Part shown: piece after piece, positions 43,692 through 53,537 of the stretch
Position numbering within the stretch: the stretch's first letter is position 1
Layout of the letters: every line of letters begins with the position of its first letter
DNA from: Thiothrix litoralis
GTDB lineage: Bacteria; Pseudomonadota; Gammaproteobacteria; Thiotrichales; Thiotrichaceae
Direction: 5' to 3'
DNA length: 64,000 bases
Assembly (NCBI RefSeq): GCF_017901135.1
Contig: NZ_CP072801.1
Span: 2,294,001-2,358,000, forward strand
Notes under the pieces: model-generated
What the model saw: the letters and a program-made list of their open reading frames with translations, nothing else
Told to the model about the DNA's origin: nothing
The model's database searches: none
Translations under genes and position numbers: made by a program

Positions 43692-43754
43692 TATGTACTC
43701 CTGATGCCATTGTCTCTCTTCTGAAAACCTGTCAACAACAGGGCTTAAGAAGAG

Positions 43755-43772
43755 GCTCCGGCGAACCGGAGC
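43755..43772 (-). promoter_or_regulatory. UUCG-capped hairpin in the dsrC-dsrM gap
   Basis: On the minus strand a perfect 7-bp stem GCTCCGG/CCGGAGC is capped by TTCG, an exceptionally stable tetraloop, 12 nt after the dsrC stop. It is followed by CTCTTCTTAAG rather than a T run, so it looks more like a 3' stabiliser or partial attenuator than a full terminator. It could raise dsrC mRNA over the downstream genes. Confidence 0.6.
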
Positions 43773-43784
43773 AACTCTATAAAA

Positions 43785-44120
43785 TTATACGCAACCCGTT
43801 GGTTTAGGCAGACCGCCGTATTTACAAGCTTGCTTGCCAGGGCCGTATGGGAACAGGCTGTACAGGTACTTAGAGTTACCTTTATCAGCGCCCAAACGCT
43901 TGCCAACGGCTTTAGTCAGAACGCGTACCGCTGGAGCAATTTGATACTCTTCATAGTATTCACGCAGGAAATTCAGGATTTCCCAGTGTTCGCTAGTCAG
44001 GGTAACGTCTTCTGCTGTTGCCAGCGCTTCTGCAACTTCTGGAGTCCAGTCGTTCAGATTCTCCAGATAGCCTTCTTCGTCCAGCGCGATGTCTTTGCCG
44101 CCGATGTTAAGTGATGCCAT
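43785..44120 (-). CDS. dsrC: DsrC, sulfur carrier protein
   Basis: A 111-residue physiological partner of DsrAB. The flexible C-terminal arm carries both redox cysteines, Cys99 and Cys110 (KQACKYGGLPKPTGCV), eleven residues apart as in Allochromatium DsrC. Thiolated DsrC donates sulfur to DsrAB and is regenerated by DsrMK. Start chosen at ATG 44120 (MASLNIGGKD); the seven-residue upstream extension is not supported. A second DsrC-like protein without cysteines is encoded at 50032-50376. Confidence 0.97.
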   Translation of the reverse strand: MASLNIGGKDIALDEEGYLENLNDWTPEVAEALATAEDVTLTSEHWEILNFLREYYEEYQIAPAVRVLTKAVGKRLGADKGNSKYLYSLFPYGPGKQACKYGGLPKPTGCV

Positions 44121-44151
44121 GAGATGGCCTCCTATCAAAAAATGTTAAAAC

Positions 44152-46385: not shown

Positions 46386-46437
46386 GTGAAGCCTCCGTCA
46401 GAGTAAACTCAAATTTATCAATAATCTGGGCAAACAA

Positions 46438-46456
46438 GGCGGCACACTTGGCCGCC
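46438..46456 (-). promoter_or_regulatory. Stem-loop in the dsrA-dsrB gap
   Basis: A 6-bp GC-only stem GGCGGC/GCCGCC with a 7-nt loop lies 24 nt after the dsrA stop, followed on the minus strand by TTGTTTG. The T run is weak, so it may slow RNase or mildly attenuate transcription rather than terminate. Confidence 0.4.
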
Positions 46457-46479
46457 CTGTTGCAAAGAGCCGTATAGTA

Positions 46480-47781
46480 TTAAGCAGCCGCAGCCATTTT
46501 TTCTTCGCGCTTGCGGTTGAACCAAGCTTCAGCAGCTTCGTCCCAACCATCAGTACGCACATAAGAAACGTTACGCGGTTGCTTGATCATGTTTGGATCT
46601 GGGTCAATACCGATGCCTTCGAGGAAGTTCACCAGACCGATACGCTCAATCATCTCACCGCAACGCTCATGTTCCAGACCGTTTTCAGCCCAGAAGTCGA
46701 TGATGGAAGCAGCCAGCTCAACGATACGCTCATAATCTTCTTCGGTATCCAGCTTCATGAATGGAATAACAACAGTACCCATCAAGTCGCCGATTTTCAG
46801 AGTACGCTTACCACCGATCAGGATAGTTACGCCCTTGTCATCGCCTACTTGCAGTGCTTTTGGCATAACGTTCAGGCAGTGCATACAACGTACACAGTTG
46901 CTGTTATCAACAGTGATGGTGTCATCGTCGTTCAGCTTGATCGCTTGAGTAGGGCAACGGCTAATAACGTTGTCGAACATGTACTGACGGCCTGCGGAAC
47001 GATCACCTTCTTTGCCAATTTCCTTGGCTTTCTTCATGATCATGTTAGCAACTTCAGCTTGATTGATTTTCATCTCATCACGCCAAGTACCAATAACCGC
47101 GAAGTCAGAACGTTCAATCGCGTTCTGGCAATCGTTAGGGCAGCCGGAAACCTTGAACTTGAACTTGTAAGGCAGCGCCGGACGATGCACGTCATCCGTA
47201 AAGTTGTTCATCAAGCGACGATGCGTGGCGTGCTCGTTACAGTTGGACATTTCACAACGGGCAGCACCCACGCAAGACATACCAGTACGCACGCAAGGGC
47301 CTGCACCACCCAAGTCCCAACCGTATTCATTGATTTCATCAAAGAAGTGTTGGAAGTTAACGCTGTTTGCGCCGATGAACATGATGTTGCCGGTTTGGCC
47401 GTGGAAAGTTTGCAGGCCAGAGCCCCATTTTTCCCAGCTATCAGCCAGTTGGCGCAGCATGTCAGTGGTGTAGTAGTTGCCAGCAGGTGGCTGTACACGT
47501 AGGGTATGGAATTCTTTGGATTCCGGGAACATGTGACCGACTTCAGAGAAGCGCGGGATAATGCCGCCACCGTAACCGAAGACAGAAATGGTACCACCTT
47601 TCCAGTAGCCCATTTTGGTTTCATAAGAGTGCTCCAACTGACCCATCAAACCATTGATGGTGTTGCGGATGCGTTCATCTGGATGCTCGTCACGCAGCTT
47701 TTTAAAGCCGCTGATGAAGCTAGGCCATGGGCCTTCTTCCAGCACATCTAGCATTGGTGTTGGATAATTTTTAATTGCCAT
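46480..47781 (-). CDS. dsrA: DsrA, reverse dissimilatory sulfite reductase alpha subunit
   Basis: A 433-residue subunit and first gene of the dsr operon. The siroheme-cluster ligands are in CVGAARCEMSNCNEHATHR and KVSGCPNDCQNAIER, and a ferredoxin domain follows with CPTQAIKL and NCVRCMHCLNVMP. The start at ATG 47781 has a strong GAGGAGG 6 nt upstream. Gene order dsrABEFHCMKLJOP matches Allochromatium vinosum. A 319-bp divergent spacer upstream should hold the operon promoter. Confidence 0.97.
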   Translation of the reverse strand: MAIKNYPTPMLDVLEEGPWPSFISGFKKLRDEHPDERIRNTINGLMGQLEHSYETKMGYWKGGTISVFGYGGGIIPRFSEVGHMFPESKEFHTLRVQPPAGNYYTTDMLRQLADSWEKWGSGLQTFHGQTGNIMFIGANSVNFQHFFDEINEYGWDLGGAGPCVRTGMSCVGAARCEMSNCNEHATHRRLMNNFTDDVHRPALPYKFKFKVSGCPNDCQNAIERSDFAVIGTWRDEMKINQAEVANMIMKKAKEIGKEGDRSAGRQYMFDNVISRCPTQAIKLNDDDTITVDNSNCVRCMHCLNVMPKALQVGDDKGVTILIGGKRTLKIGDLMGTVVIPFMKLDTEEDYERIVELAASIIDFWAENGLEHERCGEMIERIGLVNFLEGIGIDPDPNMIKQPRNVSYVRTDGWDEAAEAWFNRKREEKMAAAA

Positions 47782-48100
47782 ACCTGCCTCCTCAGTAAAC
47801 GATTACGATGGCGTTTCCTCCTGACCGGCTCTACACTCAAAATCAGGCTGAAATTTCAATTCAAAAACGGGTCGCGGAACTTTCGTTCCCTCAATATGCG
47901 AGTCTGCTAAGTGTATGCGTGATACCTACAACAAAGAATCTCACCCATGGGGTGTTGCCTGAATCCAAGCCGTATCCCTTAGGGGATATACCTTCAACAT
48001 AATCAAAAATAGTTCAGCAACAACAGTACAATAGCATATTCGGATTTTTTAATATTGCAAATAGCTGGATTTGGCAACGGTCTTTCCTGAGGTCTGTAAA
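47782..48100. promoter_or_regulatory. Divergent dsrA / dioxygenase intergenic region
   Basis: No gene is seen in these 319 bp. Notable elements: a perfect TATCCC-N4-GGGATA palindrome (47973-47988), a TGAAATTTCA palindrome (47849-47858) about 70 bp upstream of dsrA, and a small hairpin GGAAC-TTTC-GTTCC in the dsrA leader (47877-47890). No convincing -35/-10 pair was found in either direction, which fits activator-dependent control. The assignment of regulatory function is inference. Confidence 0.45.
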
Positions 48101-48979
48101 ATGCACAACTTACCCTTTTATTTCAATAACCTGATGACTTACCAAACATGGCGGACAAAAAAACTGGACGCCTACCCACTGTCATCCGAACAGTTGTTCA
48201 CGCCCATTCATGACCCGGAAAATCCCAGCGCAGCAGAACTGGCTCAACTTCAAAGTATTTGCCGTCAACACAATCTTGCCCTGTACCGTTTCATGCAAGG
48301 CGATGTGCGCAGCAAACGCCATGTGCACCGTTTAGGGCAAAAAGTAGGGCTATTCCGGCTGGATAACAATTTGTGTGCCGATGAAGACAGCCTGACATCC
48401 TTACACGTCACGTCCCATGTCGGGCAGCACGATTACATCCCCTATACTAATAAACAGTTAAGCTGGCATACCGATGGGTATTACAACCTGCCGGAAGCGC
48501 AAATCCACGGCATGGTATTGCATTGCGCCCAACACGCACTGGAAGGCGGAATGAGCTGGCTAATGGATCACGAGATTGCCTACATCCTGCTACGCGATGC
48601 CAACCCGGATTACATCCACGCTCTGATGCACCCGAATGCGTTTACCATCCCCGCCAATATCCTCAACGGGGAAATCATCCGCCCGGCACAATCCGGGCCA
48701 GTGTTCAGCATTACGCCAAGCAGCCACTTGCACATGCGCTATTCCGCCCGCCAACGTAACGTACAATGGCGTGATGATCCGCTCACACTGGAAGCTGCCG
48801 ATTTCCTATTGAATTTATGGCAACAGGACTCACCTTACAAAATAGGGTACACATTACAAGCAGGCGAAGGCTTGGTGTGCAACAACGTGCTGCATTGCCG
48901 CACTTCTTTCAAAGACAGTGACGACCCGGCACAACAACGCTTACTGTACCGAGGGCGTTATTTTGATCGGGTGCTTTAA
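48101..48979 (+). CDS. TauD/TfdA-like Fe(II)/2-oxoglutarate dioxygenase family protein
   Basis: A 292-residue protein with the HxD iron-binding motif SWHTDGYYN (His123, Asp125) and a distal histidine in NNVLHCRTSF (His265), followed by an arginine-rich LLYRGRYFDR segment that could bind 2-oxoglutarate. TauD relatives oxidise sulfonates such as taurine, but the N-terminal 100 residues are unlike TauD and the substrate is unknown. ATG 48101 is used, with GAGG about 8 nt upstream; a TTG 10 codons earlier is rejected. It is divergent from dsrA and first of a plus-strand group that includes the Cas6-like gene. Confidence 0.75.
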   Translation: MHNLPFYFNNLMTYQTWRTKKLDAYPLSSEQLFTPIHDPENPSAAELAQLQSICRQHNLALYRFMQGDVRSKRHVHRLGQKVGLFRLDNNLCADEDSLTSLHVTSHVGQHDYIPYTNKQLSWHTDGYYNLPEAQIHGMVLHCAQHALEGGMSWLMDHEIAYILLRDANPDYIHALMHPNAFTIPANILNGEIIRPAQSGPVFSITPSSHLHMRYSARQRNVQWRDDPLTLEAADFLLNLWQQDSPYKIGYTLQAGEGLVCNNVLHCRTSFKDSDDPAQQRLLYRGRYFDRVL

Positions 48980-49000
48980 ACCCCACCACAAGGAGACAAT

Positions 49001-49198
49001 ATGCTCAGCTTAAGCCAAATCCTGATGGCAGAAGGTGAAAACATCAGCAATTTCGACGAGTTAAAACAAATCGTACAAAAACGTGCCCTAGAAACAGGCT
49101 CTATTTTCTTCCAGATTGATATTGAACCACCCGGCTACAAAGACCGCCCGGAAGACTGGTACGATCAACTGGAAATTGCATTTTCATCGGCGAGGTAA
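49001..49198 (+). CDS. Small conserved-looking protein, 65 aa
   Basis: I do not recognise this 65-residue protein. It has an amphipathic N-terminal helix and an acidic, aromatic C-terminal half (DIEPPGYKDRPEDWYDQLE). The ATG has an AAGGAGA ribosome-binding site 5 nt upstream. It lies 21 bp after the dioxygenase gene and 4 bp before the Cas6-like gene, so it is almost certainly translated with them. Confidence 0.65.
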   Translation: MLSLSQILMAEGENISNFDELKQIVQKRALETGSIFFQIDIEPPGYKDRPEDWYDQLEIAFSSAR

Positions 49199-49202
49199 CA
49201 GG

Positions 49203-49892
49203 ATGTTTTGGCAGGAAGACGAAGATAAAACCCTCCCCTTCATCGCGCCCGATGACGTGCTGGACGTGAGTTTCGCCATCGACTGCAAGCGGTTGCCACT
49301 CGATCATGCTTGGGATTTGGCACAAGCTATCCAGCAAGCTCTGCCTTGGTTTGCCGAGGAAAGTGTGGCGGGGGTACACCCGGTTCACGTCGCTGAAAGC
49401 GGCAATGGCTGGGAACGCCCGGATGACCCGACCAACCAATTCCTATTGCCTTCGCGTCGCACCCGCCTATTTTTACGCATCCCCAAACAGCGGATTGCTG
49501 CCACACAAGCCCTCAGCGGCAAGACGCTGGATGTTGGCGACTACCCGATTGGCCTGCGTGACATGAAAGAAAAGCCGTTTATCCACACCTCAGTAGTCTT
49601 CGCTCGCTATGTCCTATCGAACGAGGGTGAAGATGAAAACAGCTTTTTGCAGCGTATGGCAGCAGAAGTAAAAAGGGTGGCGGATTTCAAAGTAAAAAAA
49701 CTGCTGTGCGGCAAAAGCCACACACTCCGCACGCCCGACAACGTTTTACACACACGTCATCTGATGATTGCCGATCTGGACAGTGACCCTTCCATCAAGC
49801 TGCAACAATACGGTTTAGGCGATGGGCGCAAGTTGGGTTGTGGGTTATTCATGCCACATAAGGGCATTAAAACCCTGAAACCTACAGAATGA
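49203..49892 (+). CDS. Orphan Cas6/Cmx6-like protein (MYXAN subtype family)
   Basis: A 229-residue protein resembling the family annotated as type I-MYXAN CRISPR-associated Cas6/Cmx6. Family-type blocks are LPLDHAWDLAQAIQQALPW (31-49), HPVHVAESGNGWERP (59-73), LLPSRRTRLFLRIP, and the glycine-rich RNA-binding loop GLGDGRKLGCGLFMPHK (204-220). Cas6 enzymes are ferredoxin-fold ribonucleases that cut CRISPR transcripts; His35, His59 and His62 are possible catalytic residues. No cas gene or CRISPR array is present in the window. The start at ATG 49203 lies 4 bp after the preceding gene. Family assignment is from sequence recall; cleavage activity in this setting is unproven. Confidence 0.75.
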   Translation: MFWQEDEDKTLPFIAPDDVLDVSFAIDCKRLPLDHAWDLAQAIQQALPWFAEESVAGVHPVHVAESGNGWERPDDPTNQFLLPSRRTRLFLRIPKQRIAATQALSGKTLDVGDYPIGLRDMKEKPFIHTSVVFARYVLSNEGEDENSFLQRMAAEVKRVADFKVKKLLCGKSHTLRTPDNVLHTRHLMIADLDSDPSIKLQQYGLGDGRKLGCGLFMPHKGIKTLKPTE

Positions 49893-49907
49893 TCCTCTAC
49901 GCCCATC

Positions 49908-49940
49908 GGCATACACCTCACAGCCGGGTGTATCCCTTTT
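49908..49940 (+). terminator. Possible weak terminator after the Cas6-like gene
   Basis: An imperfect stem pairs GGCATACACC with GGGTGTATCC (one mismatch, 8-nt loop), followed by CTTTTG. It lies 15 nt after the Cas6-like stop. The T run is short, so termination would be partial. Confidence 0.4.
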
Positions 49941-49968
49941 GAGGAATGGGAGGAACGGTACTTTTTCG

Positions 49969-49974
49969 TATAAT
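49969..49974 (+). promoter_or_regulatory. Consensus -10 element upstream of rspA
   Basis: A perfect TATAAT lies 58 nt before the rspA start. No -35-like hexamer is found at 16-18 bp upstream (the sequence there is ATGGGA-like), so an activator may be needed. A GTGTATCCC sequence ends 32 bp before the -10. Confidence 0.5.
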
Positions 49975-50031
49975 TTTGCGATCAAGAATTTCATCGAATG
50001 GCAACATTCACTTTTGCATGAGGAATAAAAC

Positions 50032-50376
50032 ATGGCTTACGAAGTAAATGGCACAACCATCGAAACCACTGAAGCGGGTTTTCTGGTAAACCTGAACGAT
50101 TGGAACGAAGAAGTTGCTAAAGTTATTGCCACTGAAGAAGGCATTGGCGAGTTGACCGAGCGGCATTGGGATGTCCTCAACTACTTGCGCGACCAATACA
50201 TCAACAACAACGGCACACAGCCAATGGAACGCATTATCCAGAAAGCCATGGCCGACAAGTGGAGCGACAAGAAGTTGTCCAGTAAAGACATGTACACCTT
50301 GTTCCCACGCGCACCGAGCAAGCAAGGCTTGAAAGTTGCGGGTCTGCCAGCGACTAACCGCAAAGGCGGCTATTGA
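50032..50376 (+). CDS. Cysteine-less DsrC-like protein (RspA type)
   Basis: A 114-residue DsrC/TusE-family protein. Alignable blocks are GFLVNLNDWNEEVAKVIA, LTERHWDVLNYLRDQY and MYTLFPRAPSKQGLKVAGLP. The C-terminal arm, which in DsrC carries two redox cysteines, here reads KQGLKVAGLPATNRKGGY, and the whole protein contains no cysteine. In the published classification of the DsrC superfamily, members without both cysteines are called RspA (regulatory sulfur-related proteins). It cannot carry sulfur covalently in the DsrC manner. It sits between the Cas6-like gene and a 63-residue gene, close to the dsr operon. Confidence 0.85.
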   Translation: MAYEVNGTTIETTEAGFLVNLNDWNEEVAKVIATEEGIGELTERHWDVLNYLRDQYINNNGTQPMERIIQKAMADKWSDKKLSSKDMYTLFPRAPSKQGLKVAGLPATNRKGGY

Positions 50377-50386
50377 TTTCTACCCG

Positions 50387-50406
50387 AAAGGGGGTATCCC
50401 CCTTTT
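50387..50406 (+). promoter_or_regulatory. Hairpin after rspA
   Basis: A perfect 8-bp stem AAAGGGGG/CCCCCTTT with loop TAT lies 11 nt after the rspA stop and is followed by a single further T and AACGG. It may be a weak terminator or an mRNA 3' stabiliser that lets the small downstream gene be read at a lower level. Confidence 0.5.
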
Positions 50407-50464
50407 AACGGAATCCGTTTATCCTGCTACCAAGAATTTGGTTATTTTGAAAGAGGCACCGGAC

Positions 50465-50656
50465 ATGAGCACTAAGCAAGAGCTGATCAACGAAATGATT
50501 GAAATGCAGCGCAAATTCACTGCATACGAGCAATCAGGCAAATTCAGCGCAGAAGAATATTACGTTGGTGAGTGGAAAACTTACCGCGAGCGTTATCAAG
50601 AGCTGACGAATGAAGTCCGCGAAATGGCATCCAAAGAAGCTAACTTCTGGAAATAA
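50465..50656 (+). CDS. Small helical protein, 63 aa
   Basis: I do not recognise this product. It is a 63-residue, highly charged protein predicted to be two helices (QELINEMIEMQRKFTAYEQ and WKTYRERYQELTNEVREMAS), probably forming a coiled-coil hairpin. Start at ATG 50465; the longer open frame upstream overlaps the hairpin after rspA and has no support. It is followed by a strong terminator, making it the last gene of the plus-strand group. Confidence 0.65.
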   Translation: MSTKQELINEMIEMQRKFTAYEQSGKFSAEEYYVGEWKTYRERYQELTNEVREMASKEANFWK

Positions 50657-50679
50657 GCTGTAATCGCTTCAGATACCTG

Positions 50680-50705
50680 AAAAGCCGCTAACCAGCGGCT
50701 TTTTT
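50680..50705 (+). terminator. Intrinsic terminator ending the rspA group
   Basis: A perfect 10-bp stem AAAAGCCGCT/AGCGGCTTTT with loop AACC is followed by further T residues, 24 nt after the stop of the 63-residue gene. Confidence 0.9.
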
Positions 50706-51696: not shown

Positions 51697-52365
51697 CTAC
51701 ACCTCACTCCACATTCGCAACAAGTTGATGTGGACAGTGCTGATGTTGGCCGCCTCGCTCGAGGCTGGCAGCTTTTCCATCACACTCTCACGCGCCTGAG
51801 CCAACTGGTAAAGCAATTCGCGCTGTTGCGGGTCTTTCACCAGACTTTGCGCCCATGTCACTGCCACCAGCCGTACACCTTTGGTCACTTCCGCGACTTT
51901 ATGCCAACTGCCAGAATCATACACAACCGCATCACCCGCTTCCCCACGTATTTTTTCTTCCCCATACGCAGTGCGGATAACAATTTCACCGCCCTCGTAG
52001 TCATCATTGAGGAAGACTGTGCTGGAAACATCCGTGCGGTAACGCCCCGACATCGGCCCCATCACCGGGTCATCAACGTGGAAACCGTAGGCCATACCCG
52101 GCAGATAACGCGCATAAAACGCAGTGGCCACCCGCAGTGGCATAACGGCGGCTTGATATTCAGGGTTTTGTACCAGCGGCGACATCACCATCGCATTCAG
52201 GCGACGGTGCAAAGGGCTGTTGGGGGAAAGTTCCTGATTGTACTTAACCTTGGCAGCCTCCGCTCCGGCAGAAAAGCGCCCATCCACGAATTCGCCGGTG
52301 GCCAACAATTCCTGTACTTCCTTGATACGCTGGGGGTCGAGTACTTTTTTGATCAGCAATAGCAT
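51697..52365 (-). CDS. PiuC/YbiX-type PKHD hydroxylase (Fe(II)/2-oxoglutarate)
   Basis: A 222-residue PKHD-type hydroxylase. The iron ligands are His96 and Asp98 (GFHVDDPVMGPMSGRYRTDVS) and His155 (SGSWHKVAEV), with Arg165 as the likely 2-oxoglutarate anchor. Family members are linked to TonB-dependent iron-siderophore uptake, but no receptor gene is adjacent here. ATG 52365 is chosen with AAGGAAA upstream; the 24-codon extension is rejected. Divergent from the small gene at 52429. Confidence 0.88.
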   Translation of the reverse strand: MLLLIKKVLDPQRIKEVQELLATGEFVDGRFSAGAEAAKVKYNQELSPNSPLHRRLNAMVMSPLVQNPEYQAAVMPLRVATAFYARYLPGMAYGFHVDDPVMGPMSGRYRTDVSSTVFLNDDYEGGEIVIRTAYGEEKIRGEAGDAVVYDSGSWHKVAEVTKGVRLVAVTWAQSLVKDPQQRELLYQLAQARESVMEKLPASSEAANISTVHINLLRMWSEV

Positions 52366-52428
52366 GGCAATTTCCTTTAAGCGATGGAATCGGGTAATCT
52401 GCCCACGAGACAGATAAAAGGTTAAAGA

Positions 52429-52754: not shown

Positions 52755-53537
52755 TCAATACCGCACAGCAGGCGTTTCGATTTTCAGGCCATTGGAACGC
52801 GACATAATATAAGCGCCCAGCAGTTTGCTTTCTTCTGCATCGGGCGCGAACGGTTCGGCACGCATCAAGGTCAGGCATTGTTTAATGCGTAAATCGAGGT
52901 TTGCCATTTCACCCGTATCCAGCCGGTAAGCTGGGAAACCATTACCCTGCCCTTGGCTGATTTTCTGCCCACGAATCATCTGACCGGGGTACATGTCATG
53001 GCAATGGGCGCAAGACATATCAATCAAGCCGAAGCGGGTTCTGTACAGTTCCTCACCTTTTTTCAGTAGCGGTGCCATATCGCCGTCGGTTTGCACATTG
53101 ACGGGTTCACCAACAGCCAAATGGCGCACAAAGGTTTCCAGTGCCAGCAAATCATGATCGTATGCGGGCAAGGGGGCTTCACCTGACTGCTGTTCACGGC
53201 AACTCATGATTTTATCTTGCAAGCGCACAATGCCGCCCTGCGCCTTATCGTAGATCGGGTAACGCGCCAGATTGTTCACAGCCAGCTTTTCACCCGCCTC
53301 GCCGTGGCAACTCGCGCAAGATTTGCCGGACGCAGGCTTGGCATTAAACAATACCCGCCCTGCCTCCACGGCAATGAAACCGGGATTCTGGAATTCATCA
53401 TCCTGCATCTCACGGGTTTCGTCTTTGACGAATTCATGACCAGACTTGGAAGGTGTCGGCGCATCAGCAGATACATAACAAGACATTGCCAGCAGCAAAC
53501 TGCCCATCCACAAACGTGAGGAAGTAGGTGTAATCAT
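52755..53537 (-). CDS. soxA: SoxA, diheme cytochrome c of the SoxAX complex
   Basis: A 260-residue periplasmic cytochrome with a signal peptide (about 1-24). It has two CXXCH sites, CASCH (74-78) and CAHCH (176-180), and Cys221 in IKQCLTLMRAEPF, which corresponds to the active-site cysteine that is a heme ligand and persulfide-modified in SoxA. SoxAX joins thiosulfate to the SoxY carrier as the first step of the Sox cycle. It overlaps soxX by 4 bp. Other sox genes are not in the window. Confidence 0.94.
   Translation of the reverse strand: MITPTSSRLWMGSLLLAMSCYVSADAPTPSKSGHEFVKDETREMQDDEFQNPGFIAVEAGRVLFNAKPASGKSCASCHGEAGEKLAVNNLARYPIYDKAQGGIVRLQDKIMSCREQQSGEAPLPAYDHDLLALETFVRHLAVGEPVNVQTDGDMAPLLKKGEELYRTRFGLIDMSCAHCHDMYPGQMIRGQKISQGQGNGFPAYRLDTGEMANLDLRIKQCLTLMRAEPFAPDAEESKLLGAYIMSRSNGLKIETPAVRY

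Follow-up and report, generated by a model that had tools for sequence, protein, structure and literature searches.

Genomic comparison identified a Cas6-family protein as a near-constant companion of the reverse Dsr (rDsr) sulfur-oxidation genes across the sampled Gammaproteobacteria, in genomes with or without clustered regularly interspaced short palindromic repeats (CRISPR), which suggests that a CRISPR enzyme has been recruited for energy metabolism. The gene considered here lies at 49203-49892 on the + strand, beside the dsr operon, in a 64,000-nucleotide stretch of the Thiothrix litoralis genome (contig NZ_CP072801.1, positions 2,294,001 to 2,358,000; hereafter the window), and it is the single PF09559 gene of that one-contig, 4.28 Mb genome. 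Within the Gammaproteobacteria it is nearly certain that this gene is linked to dsr and stands apart from CRISPR, and it seems probable that its product acts on RNA.

The survey covered 370 gammaproteobacterial genomes that were at least 85% complete and were searched for PF09559, dsrA and Cas1. PF09559 was found in 124 genomes, dsrA in 118 over the cut-off of its profile (TIGR02064) and in 5 more by fragment matches read as dsrA pieces among the matches listed (G093, G237, G256, G266 and G308), and Cas1 in 145, counting any match at E<=1e-3 (144 over cut-off). TIGR02064 itself gave matches at E<=1e-3 in 226 genomes, the weaker of which were taken as dsrB or assimilatory reductases. The presence of the Cas6-like gene tracked that of dsrA, as an rDsr accessory gene should: both genes occurred in 118 genomes, Cas6 only in 6, dsrA only in 5, and neither in 241 (Fisher p = 5e-82, a value overstated by counting related genomes as independent). 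Eight of the 11 exceptions have a contig end at the expected position of the missing partner. These are five of the six Cas6-only genomes (G124, G146, G178, G327 and G356), with a contig end where dsrA is expected, and the dsrA-only genomes G161, G174 and G255, with a contig edge at the expected remainder of the cassette, G174 retaining P65 and tauD. The sixth Cas6-only genome, G341, belongs to a genus whose three other sampled genomes carry the two genes on separate contigs, and the dsrA-only genomes G259 and G389 are 86% and 88% complete, respectively. We regard the exceptions as mostly assembly gaps. In G114, G136, G198, G207, G351, G371, G424 and G426, dsrA was matched over the cut-off a second time, at a distant site or on a different contig.

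Four families (f1, f2, f31 and f50) hold both states, and within them Cas6 and dsrA switch together. Among 63 genomes of the window's order, Cas6 was present in 51, dsr in 48 and both in 44, with genomes that had a dsrB-type match only (G026, G027 and G047) scored as dsr-positive. The 46 good genomes of the order included 39 with both genes, two with Cas6 only (G003 and G046), one with dsr only (G027) and four with neither (G028, G029, G031 and G042), so that the well-assembled genomes of the order that are free of dsr and lack Cas6 are these last four. G003 and G046 have Cas6 but not dsrA, and G046, at 96% completeness, is a real or apparent exception. Cas6 and DsrA distances were correlated (r = 0.556 across 92 loci; none of 2000 permutations reached this value), which fits joint inheritance, although vertical descent alone would be expected to give the same result.

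Association with CRISPR was not evident on the same scale. Cas1 was matched in 57 of the 124 Cas6 genomes and in 88 of the 246 others (p = 0.07), indicating no clear link and arguing against homologues that occur mostly with CRISPR, and the five Cas6 genomes of 1.0-1.1 Mb all lacked a Cas1 match. The first-pass annotation had reported no CRISPR array, and an array finder that caught the arrays in the genome's three cas loci likewise found none in the window. The nearest cas gene located elsewhere in the genome is ~219 kb away, with the open reading frames of the window not all scanned for cas genes. A type I-MYXAN assignment would call for cas3, cas5, cas7, cmx8 and cas1 with an array nearby, and for co-occurrence with adaptation genes; this setting was not found, as the window holds no array, the tested neighbors of the Cas6-like gene were dsrA, tauD, P65, rspA and the gene for a 63-amino-acid protein, and Cas1 gave the p value above. 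Of 150 loci taken from other genomes (145 with Cas6), three contained short regular repeats (L088 14288-14430, L156 1-237 and L192 1472-1819), which may represent CRISPR arrays or else coding sequence that is repeated.

Linkage to dsrA was also close. The two genes were divergent in 87 of 87 genomes where they lay within 6 kb of each other, with gaps of 662-4511 bp, and 87 of the 89 genomes with both on one contig had them closely linked. The arrangement in the window, together with the dsr features discussed below, is as follows.

48101-48979, + strand: tauD, a TauD/gamma-butyrobetaine-dioxygenase-like Fe(II)/2-oxoglutarate (2OG) oxygenase (PF02668, 2e-17; HxD motif at 123-125)
49001-49198, + strand: P65, a 65-amino-acid protein and the closest partner of the Cas6-like protein (alignment of 31 proteins; co-occurrence)
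49203-49892, + strand: Cas6-fold protein of 229 amino acids, dsr-associated subfamily (PF09559/TIGR02807, conservation, predicted fold, co-occurrence with dsrA), with candidate active-site His35 and a Gly-rich loop at 204-214, both from conservation
49931-49974, + strand: conserved promoter region of rspA (TATCCCTTTTGAGGAATGGGAG ... TATAAT), in the window and all 15 same-genus loci
50032-50376, + strand: cysteine-less paralogue of the DsrC/TusE family (RspA), tail RKGGY (PF04358, 6e-35)
50386-50406, + strand: conserved hairpin between rspA and the next gene, in some form in 16 of the 16 same-genus sequences listed
50465-50656, + strand: 63-amino-acid protein of a conserved small family (alignment of 17 proteins)
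50679-50704, + strand: terminator-like hairpin (11-pair stem) followed by a T tract, end of the cassette
47782-48100: divergent dsrA/tauD control region, with the palindrome TATCCCTTAGGGGATA at 47973-47988 (14 same-genus sequences aligned)
46480-47781, - strand: dsrA, the divergent, co-occurring neighbor (TIGR02064, 605 bits)
46386-46479, - strand: dsrA-dsrB intergenic region with a non-terminator hairpin, putative substrate
43692-43784, - strand: dsrC-dsrM intergenic region with a hairpin, putative substrate

The five + strand genes were annotated correctly in the first pass, including their spacing: the gaps are 21 bp (tauD-P65), 4 bp (P65-Cas6), 139 bp (Cas6-rspA) and 88 bp (rspA-63-amino-acid gene). 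Conservation of these neighbors was examined in two partly overlapping sets of loci, one comprising 70 fetched loci hand-chosen across families, 65 of them with Cas6, and the other the best 80 of 569 confirmed stretches, all of them named loci. On the expected side of Cas6, the 65 loci had P65 in 51 cases, rspA in 47, tauD in 46 and the 63-amino-acid gene in 34, with all five genes in 21. Among the best 80 of 569, the corresponding counts were 77 (P65), 53 (rspA), 54 (tauD) and 37 (63-amino-acid gene), with all five in 28, and dsrA was divergent in 52 of the 52 loci where it was within reach. The TauD-like gene is a frequent rather than constant member of the cassette; no tauD match was found in L173, L184, L205 and L208 (Halochromatium, Thiohalocapsa, Allochromatium and Thiosymbion). 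P65 was matched in 109 of the 370 surveyed genomes, 108 of which also have Cas6, the exception being G174, where the contig ends. The constant partners of the Cas6-like gene are dsrAB and P65 and not specifically the cysteine-less DsrC paralogue. The initial proposal of a repurposed, non-CRISPR Cas6 tied to dsr is strongly supported by the co-occurrence; its emphasis on the DsrC paralogue is not. The nearest named homologues, among the matches listed, came from Thiotrichaceae, Leucothrix and Cocleimonas.

Several genomes have kept the Cas6-like gene after its separation from dsrA, at distances of ~164 kb (G050), ~18 kb (G056), 517 kb (G363) and 41 kb (G160), which argues for a shared function rather than hitch-hiking. 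Marithrix, Parabeggiatoa and Thiomargarita have P65-Cas6 pairs with no dsrA within the stretch fetched, and in G101 P65 remains beside dsrA with Cas6 on another contig. In the window's genus (16 genomes), P65, Cas6, rspA and the 63-amino-acid gene remain grouped also in the two genomes that carry them away from dsr, these being 2 of the 15 same-genus loci compared (L217 and L225). In Allochromatium palmeri DSM 15591 (L205), P65 and Cas6 lie beside dsrA together with an additional gene; a gene of ~235-241 amino acids stands between P65 and Cas6 in some lineages (e.g., A. palmeri L205 7259-7981; L164 7171-7875), and a Pfam search gave no match for it. Long frames in L037, L038, L063 and other loci were considered as fusions of Cas6 with partner genes and set aside, as they look like read-through of an upstream open frame. 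Carriage by viruses was also rejected, as viral contigs yielded no confirmed relative and phage records gave no match.

Profile, fold and residues all place the protein in the Cas6 family. It matched PF09559 at 9e-55 (186 bits; cut-off 26.7) and TIGR02807 (cas6_cmx6) at 99.7 bits, marginally over the cut-off of 98.85; each of the 66 dsr-type proteins in the alignment matched TIGR02807 at E<=1e-3, the curated cut-off pass being seen for the window's protein. A structure predicted by AlphaFold2, with the 66 dsr-type sequences as the alignment, had a mean predicted local distance difference test score of 91.1 and a predicted template-modelling (TM) score of 0.87. Foldseek comparison with the PDB returned 38 matches at E<=1e-3, all of them Cas6/Cse3 entries or chains of Cascade complexes; for two of these (8yb6_B and 8yha_B, type I-E HNH Cascade) the subunit of the chain is not stated. 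The top match was chain B, the Cas6 of a type I-B CRISPR transposon Cascade (TM 0.75-0.77), and a profile search of solved structures agreed (8fcj_B, 4e-25). That type I-B transposon Cas6 (8fcj/8fcu) is thus the closest solved structure, but it is a Cascade component and the residue aligned with H35 is Asn. Cas6e (Cse3) and archaeal Cas6 proteins share the fold by Foldseek at greater distance (TM ~0.4-0.63; 9-14% identity).

CRISPR-type proteins for residue comparison were five relatives from cyanobacterial plasmids (L211-L215), type I-MYXAN/I-B Cas6 (Cmx6) proteins that are homologous to the dsr-type over their whole length, with an H35 equivalent and the LQxxGxGxxRxxGCGxF loop. They differ in having only 23-27% identity to the window's protein and in genomic context, as all five loci place the gene among cas genes, cas3 included, and the dsr-type genes are not so placed. 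Common to both types are H35 (65 of 66 dsr-type and all five CRISPR-type proteins), R92, Q201 and the Gly-rich loop; the loop had been singled out in the first pass at residues 204-220, which read GLGDGRKLGCGLFMPHK. The marks that set the dsr-type apart from the five are W3; an insertion that starts at invariant W70 and includes R72; and, outside this insertion, E145, K166, G170 and H219-K220. By these criteria the dsr-type proteins are a distinct subfamily of PF09559 Cas6, nearly always single-copy. The subfamily appears to have kept its RNase features, with H35 as the putative catalytic residue, and from the fold and residues we infer that the protein would cleave RNA.

Possible substrates were sought by folding unique dsr intergenic sequences of at least 40 nt and scoring them against shuffles. 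Excess structure was concentrated in two places, dsrA-dsrB (median z -2.17; z<-3 in 28 of 87) and dsrC-dsrM (median z -2.86; z<-3 in 33 of 76), and was not found in dsrE-dsrF (0 of 35), dsrF-dsrH (0 of 2), dsrH-dsrC (2 of 60) or dsrM-dsrK (0 of 28). Hairpins of -10 kcal/mol or lower were present in 48 of 87 dsrA-dsrB sequences, one with a T tract, and in 63 of 76 dsrC-dsrM sequences, eight with a T tract; most of these hairpins are not terminators, given how few have T-rich tails. A common sequence motif was looked for and none was present among the hairpins listed. Structure kept where sequence is not would fit recognition by a nuclease, or a stabilizing element, that reads structure.

Our preferred reading, which we hold tentatively, is that the protein is a domesticated Cas6 that has retained its RNase activity and serves, usually with P65, as an RNA-processing factor of Dsr sulfur oxidation. 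The RNA endonuclease fold and His35 would have been kept, and the protein, usually helped by co-encoded P65, would process RNA for the Dsr system. The likeliest substrate, by a weaker argument, would be the stem-loops of the polycistronic dsr mRNA at dsrA-dsrB and dsrC-dsrM. The usual cut made by Cas6 enzymes is at the 3' base of a stem-loop, which then remains as the 3' end, and for this reason a cut after dsrC would release a stabilized dsrA-C message. Such a cut at the end of dsrC could set the ratio of soluble DsrABEFHC to the membrane complex DsrMKJOP. Action on dsr mRNA is possible but rather doubtful, because the comparison with Cas6-less loci is ambiguous. In its most specific form, which we consider somewhat unlikely, the proposal is that a CRISPR enzyme was captured by the gammaproteobacterial rDsr system and, with P65 as a new cofactor, became a dedicated mRNA nuclease acting on intergenic hairpins, giving unequal output of soluble and membrane proteins.

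A number of observations weigh against processing of this kind. Catalysis is assumed from a single histidine, and some Cas6 proteins bind RNA without cutting it. The dsrB-dsrE region is intermediate in structure (5 of 19 at z<-3), the hairpins listed share position and structure but no sequence, and stabilizing hairpins within operons also occur in bacteria that have no Cas6. P65 was not matched in 16 of the 124 Cas6 genomes. Cas6-less dsr loci were drawn from 20 of 30 dsrA genomes outside the class, and among them one of two loci had the dsrC-dsrM hairpin (z -5.6 and -0.8). At dsrA-dsrB, one of 20 Cas6-less loci reached z<-3, a comparison that is not a matched control, as 17 of the 20 have no dsrEFH in the stretch and look reductive; the three with dsrEFH, the oxidative signature, had z values of -0.1, -1.5 and -1.4.

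The gene's distribution beyond the Gammaproteobacteria bears on the same question. Of 189 phylum genomes, 31 had dsrA over the cut-off; 30 of the 31 belong to other classes, and the Cas6-like gene was not found in those 30. PF09559 matched only the window's own genome among 199 phylum genomes, a set whose inclusion of the 30 dsrA genomes is deduced from handle numbers, and a dsr-type profile found nothing in four dsrA genomes from outside the class, in a search that had no positive control. As no copy was seen in dsrA genomes of other classes, the gene is not required for Dsr chemistry as such, and it looks like a gammaproteobacterial Dsr accessory rather than a universal one.

The strongest alternative, though an unlikely one, is an RNA-binding regulator that does not cut: it would bind a structured element, either a leader or an intergenic hairpin, and control the translation or stability of the dsr or cassette mRNAs. 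Such a role would account for the conserved fold and Gly-rich loop, for the conserved hairpins and for the palindromic divergent control region, but retention of H35 in all but one of the dsr-type proteins, in a family whose mean pairwise identity is 46% (92 loci), goes beyond what binding seems to need. It is improbable that the protein is a moonlighting scaffold in which the Cas6 fold contacts P65 or Dsr proteins and has no role with RNA: W3, the W70/R72 insertion and H219-K220, being absent from the five CRISPR-type proteins, suggest a new partner, but what the dsr-type shares with CRISPR Cas6 is the RNA-binding loop and H35. Processing of RNA for some other dsr-linked need, for example a tRNA or small RNA tied to sulfur transfer, along the lines suggested in the first pass, seems less probable still. 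A gene of the DsrC/TusE family adjoins in most loci, and the sulfur relays DsrEFH and TusBCD are homologous to each other; rspA adjoins less regularly than P65, however, and nothing found points to tRNA, the only Rfam RNAs in the window being two tRNAs, both more than 19 kb from the cassette, which itself contains no tRNA or other Rfam RNA.

Service to CRISPR in trans, with the protein maturing CRISPR RNAs for distant arrays as an orphan Cas6, is very improbable and was rejected as a general role. Most type III systems are reported, in the part of the literature consulted, to have Cas6 supplied in trans (PMC12669027), and the host genome carries at least three CRISPR loci (L231-L233), of types I-C, I-D and III-D, at ~1.04, 1.16 and 2.56-2.59 Mb. 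However, these systems seem to have no need of the dsr-linked Cas6: type I-C is equipped with Cas5c and type I-D with a Cas6d of its own, and a PF10040 Cas6 is encoded ~5 kb away from the III-D genes. None of the located loci is closer than the ~219 kb given above, which counts against the possibility, raised with the initial proposal, of a CRISPR array with cas genes near the gene but outside the window. Across genomes, 67 of the 124 with Cas6 had no Cas1 match, and the co-occurrence is with dsrA and not clearly with cas1. The I-D locus includes an array of ~71 repeats, and the III-D locus a Csx1 gene and a SAVED/CARF-type gene. That the gene is a neutral hitch-hiker or a type I-MYXAN CRISPR remnant has a negligible chance of being correct, as its tight linkage to dsrA on shared contigs is outweighed by its presence in 124 of 370 genomes, its retention when unlinked and in 1 Mb genomes, and its conserved active-site residue.

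The palindrome TATCCCTTAGGGGATA of the dsrA/tauD control region varies slightly among the 14 aligned same-genus sequences, and its TATCCC element recurs upstream of rspA (49931), where it is found in the window, in 15 of 15 same-genus loci and in the two relocated cassettes. Read from sequence, the palindrome and the related TATCCC before rspA suggest that dsr and the cassette have a common regulator. Within the control region, an A/T-rich block (GTACAATAGCATATTC..ATTTTTTAATATT) is nearly invariant across 14 same-genus genomes. The -10 element noticed earlier before rspA is present as TATAAT and has the same distribution, including both relocated cassettes; a promoter scan of the cassette region found no full sigma-70-type site. 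The hairpin between rspA and the 63-amino-acid gene is T-rich on its 3' side and may be a partial terminator. The closing terminator also held up, at the coordinates listed, in a region where the number of terminator-like sites (3, against a shuffle mean of 4.4) is not above chance.

The DsrC homologue, named RspA in the first pass, indeed contains no cysteine, compared to two in the true DsrC of the operon (43785-44138). P65 and the 63-amino-acid protein are, on the evidence of the invariant columns in both of their alignments, genuine protein families; P65 of the window had no match to a Pfam family. Just beyond the cassette, the window encodes a PKHD-type 2OG-Fe(II) hydroxylase (51697-52368) and a SoxA/TsdA-type cytochrome c (52755-53537).

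A search of the literature found no study in which a Cas6-like gene of the dsr loci is examined, although subscription papers were mostly outside that search and an earlier mention is possible. The neighborhood itself appears to be already in print and unremarked: the legend of Figure 3B of PMC10989796 places cas6 beside dsrL, dsrABCMKJOP and dsrEFH in metagenome-assembled genomes from mangrove rhizosphere, including Chromatiales and Burkholderiales. Judged by that legend this is probably the same gene; the section concerned does not comment on cas6, and CRISPR goes unnamed in the text of the paper. Where Cas6 is mentioned in the portions consulted of PMC3397948, PMC6504805, PMC10952691, PMC5728499, PMC5944118, PMC11406059, PMC5294841, PMC8730458, PMC12669027, PMC8226683, PMC5109826, PMC4046663 and PMC8616872, it is as a part of CRISPR. 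PMC5944118, in the part consulted, also reports an additional DsrC-like gene in Thiodictyon (THSYN_22565), with a locus number near the dsr cluster, and, for A. vinosum, that DsrC binds the DNA upstream of dsr. An IscA-like dsr-linked protein, as described in the passages seen of PMC11406059, is likewise a dsr accessory named as taking part in regulation, but is unrelated to the Cas6-like protein. CRISPR parts at work outside immunity are known from the Dev operon of Myxobacteria and other exaptations (PMC8730458, in the sections consulted); those involve CRISPR systems or several cas genes, in contrast to a lone cas6-family gene in a metabolic locus.

The TIGR02807 model of NCBI, titled "type I-MYXAN CRISPR-associated protein Cas6/Cmx6", is a likely source of CRISPR names for dsr-type proteins, and such a name may conceal a conserved partner of a major sulfur-oxidation locus; CRISPR surveys may likewise score the dsr-linked gene as an orphan cas6. 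Allochromatium, the genus of A. palmeri and of the model A. vinosum, looks like a feasible setting for a test of the gene. If the protein does process RNA, rDsr would gain a post-transcriptional layer and Cas6 a function outside immunity, and if it proves to be a nuclease of the dsr mRNA, it would be a solitary Cas6, retained over a long time, at work in respiration and not in immunity.

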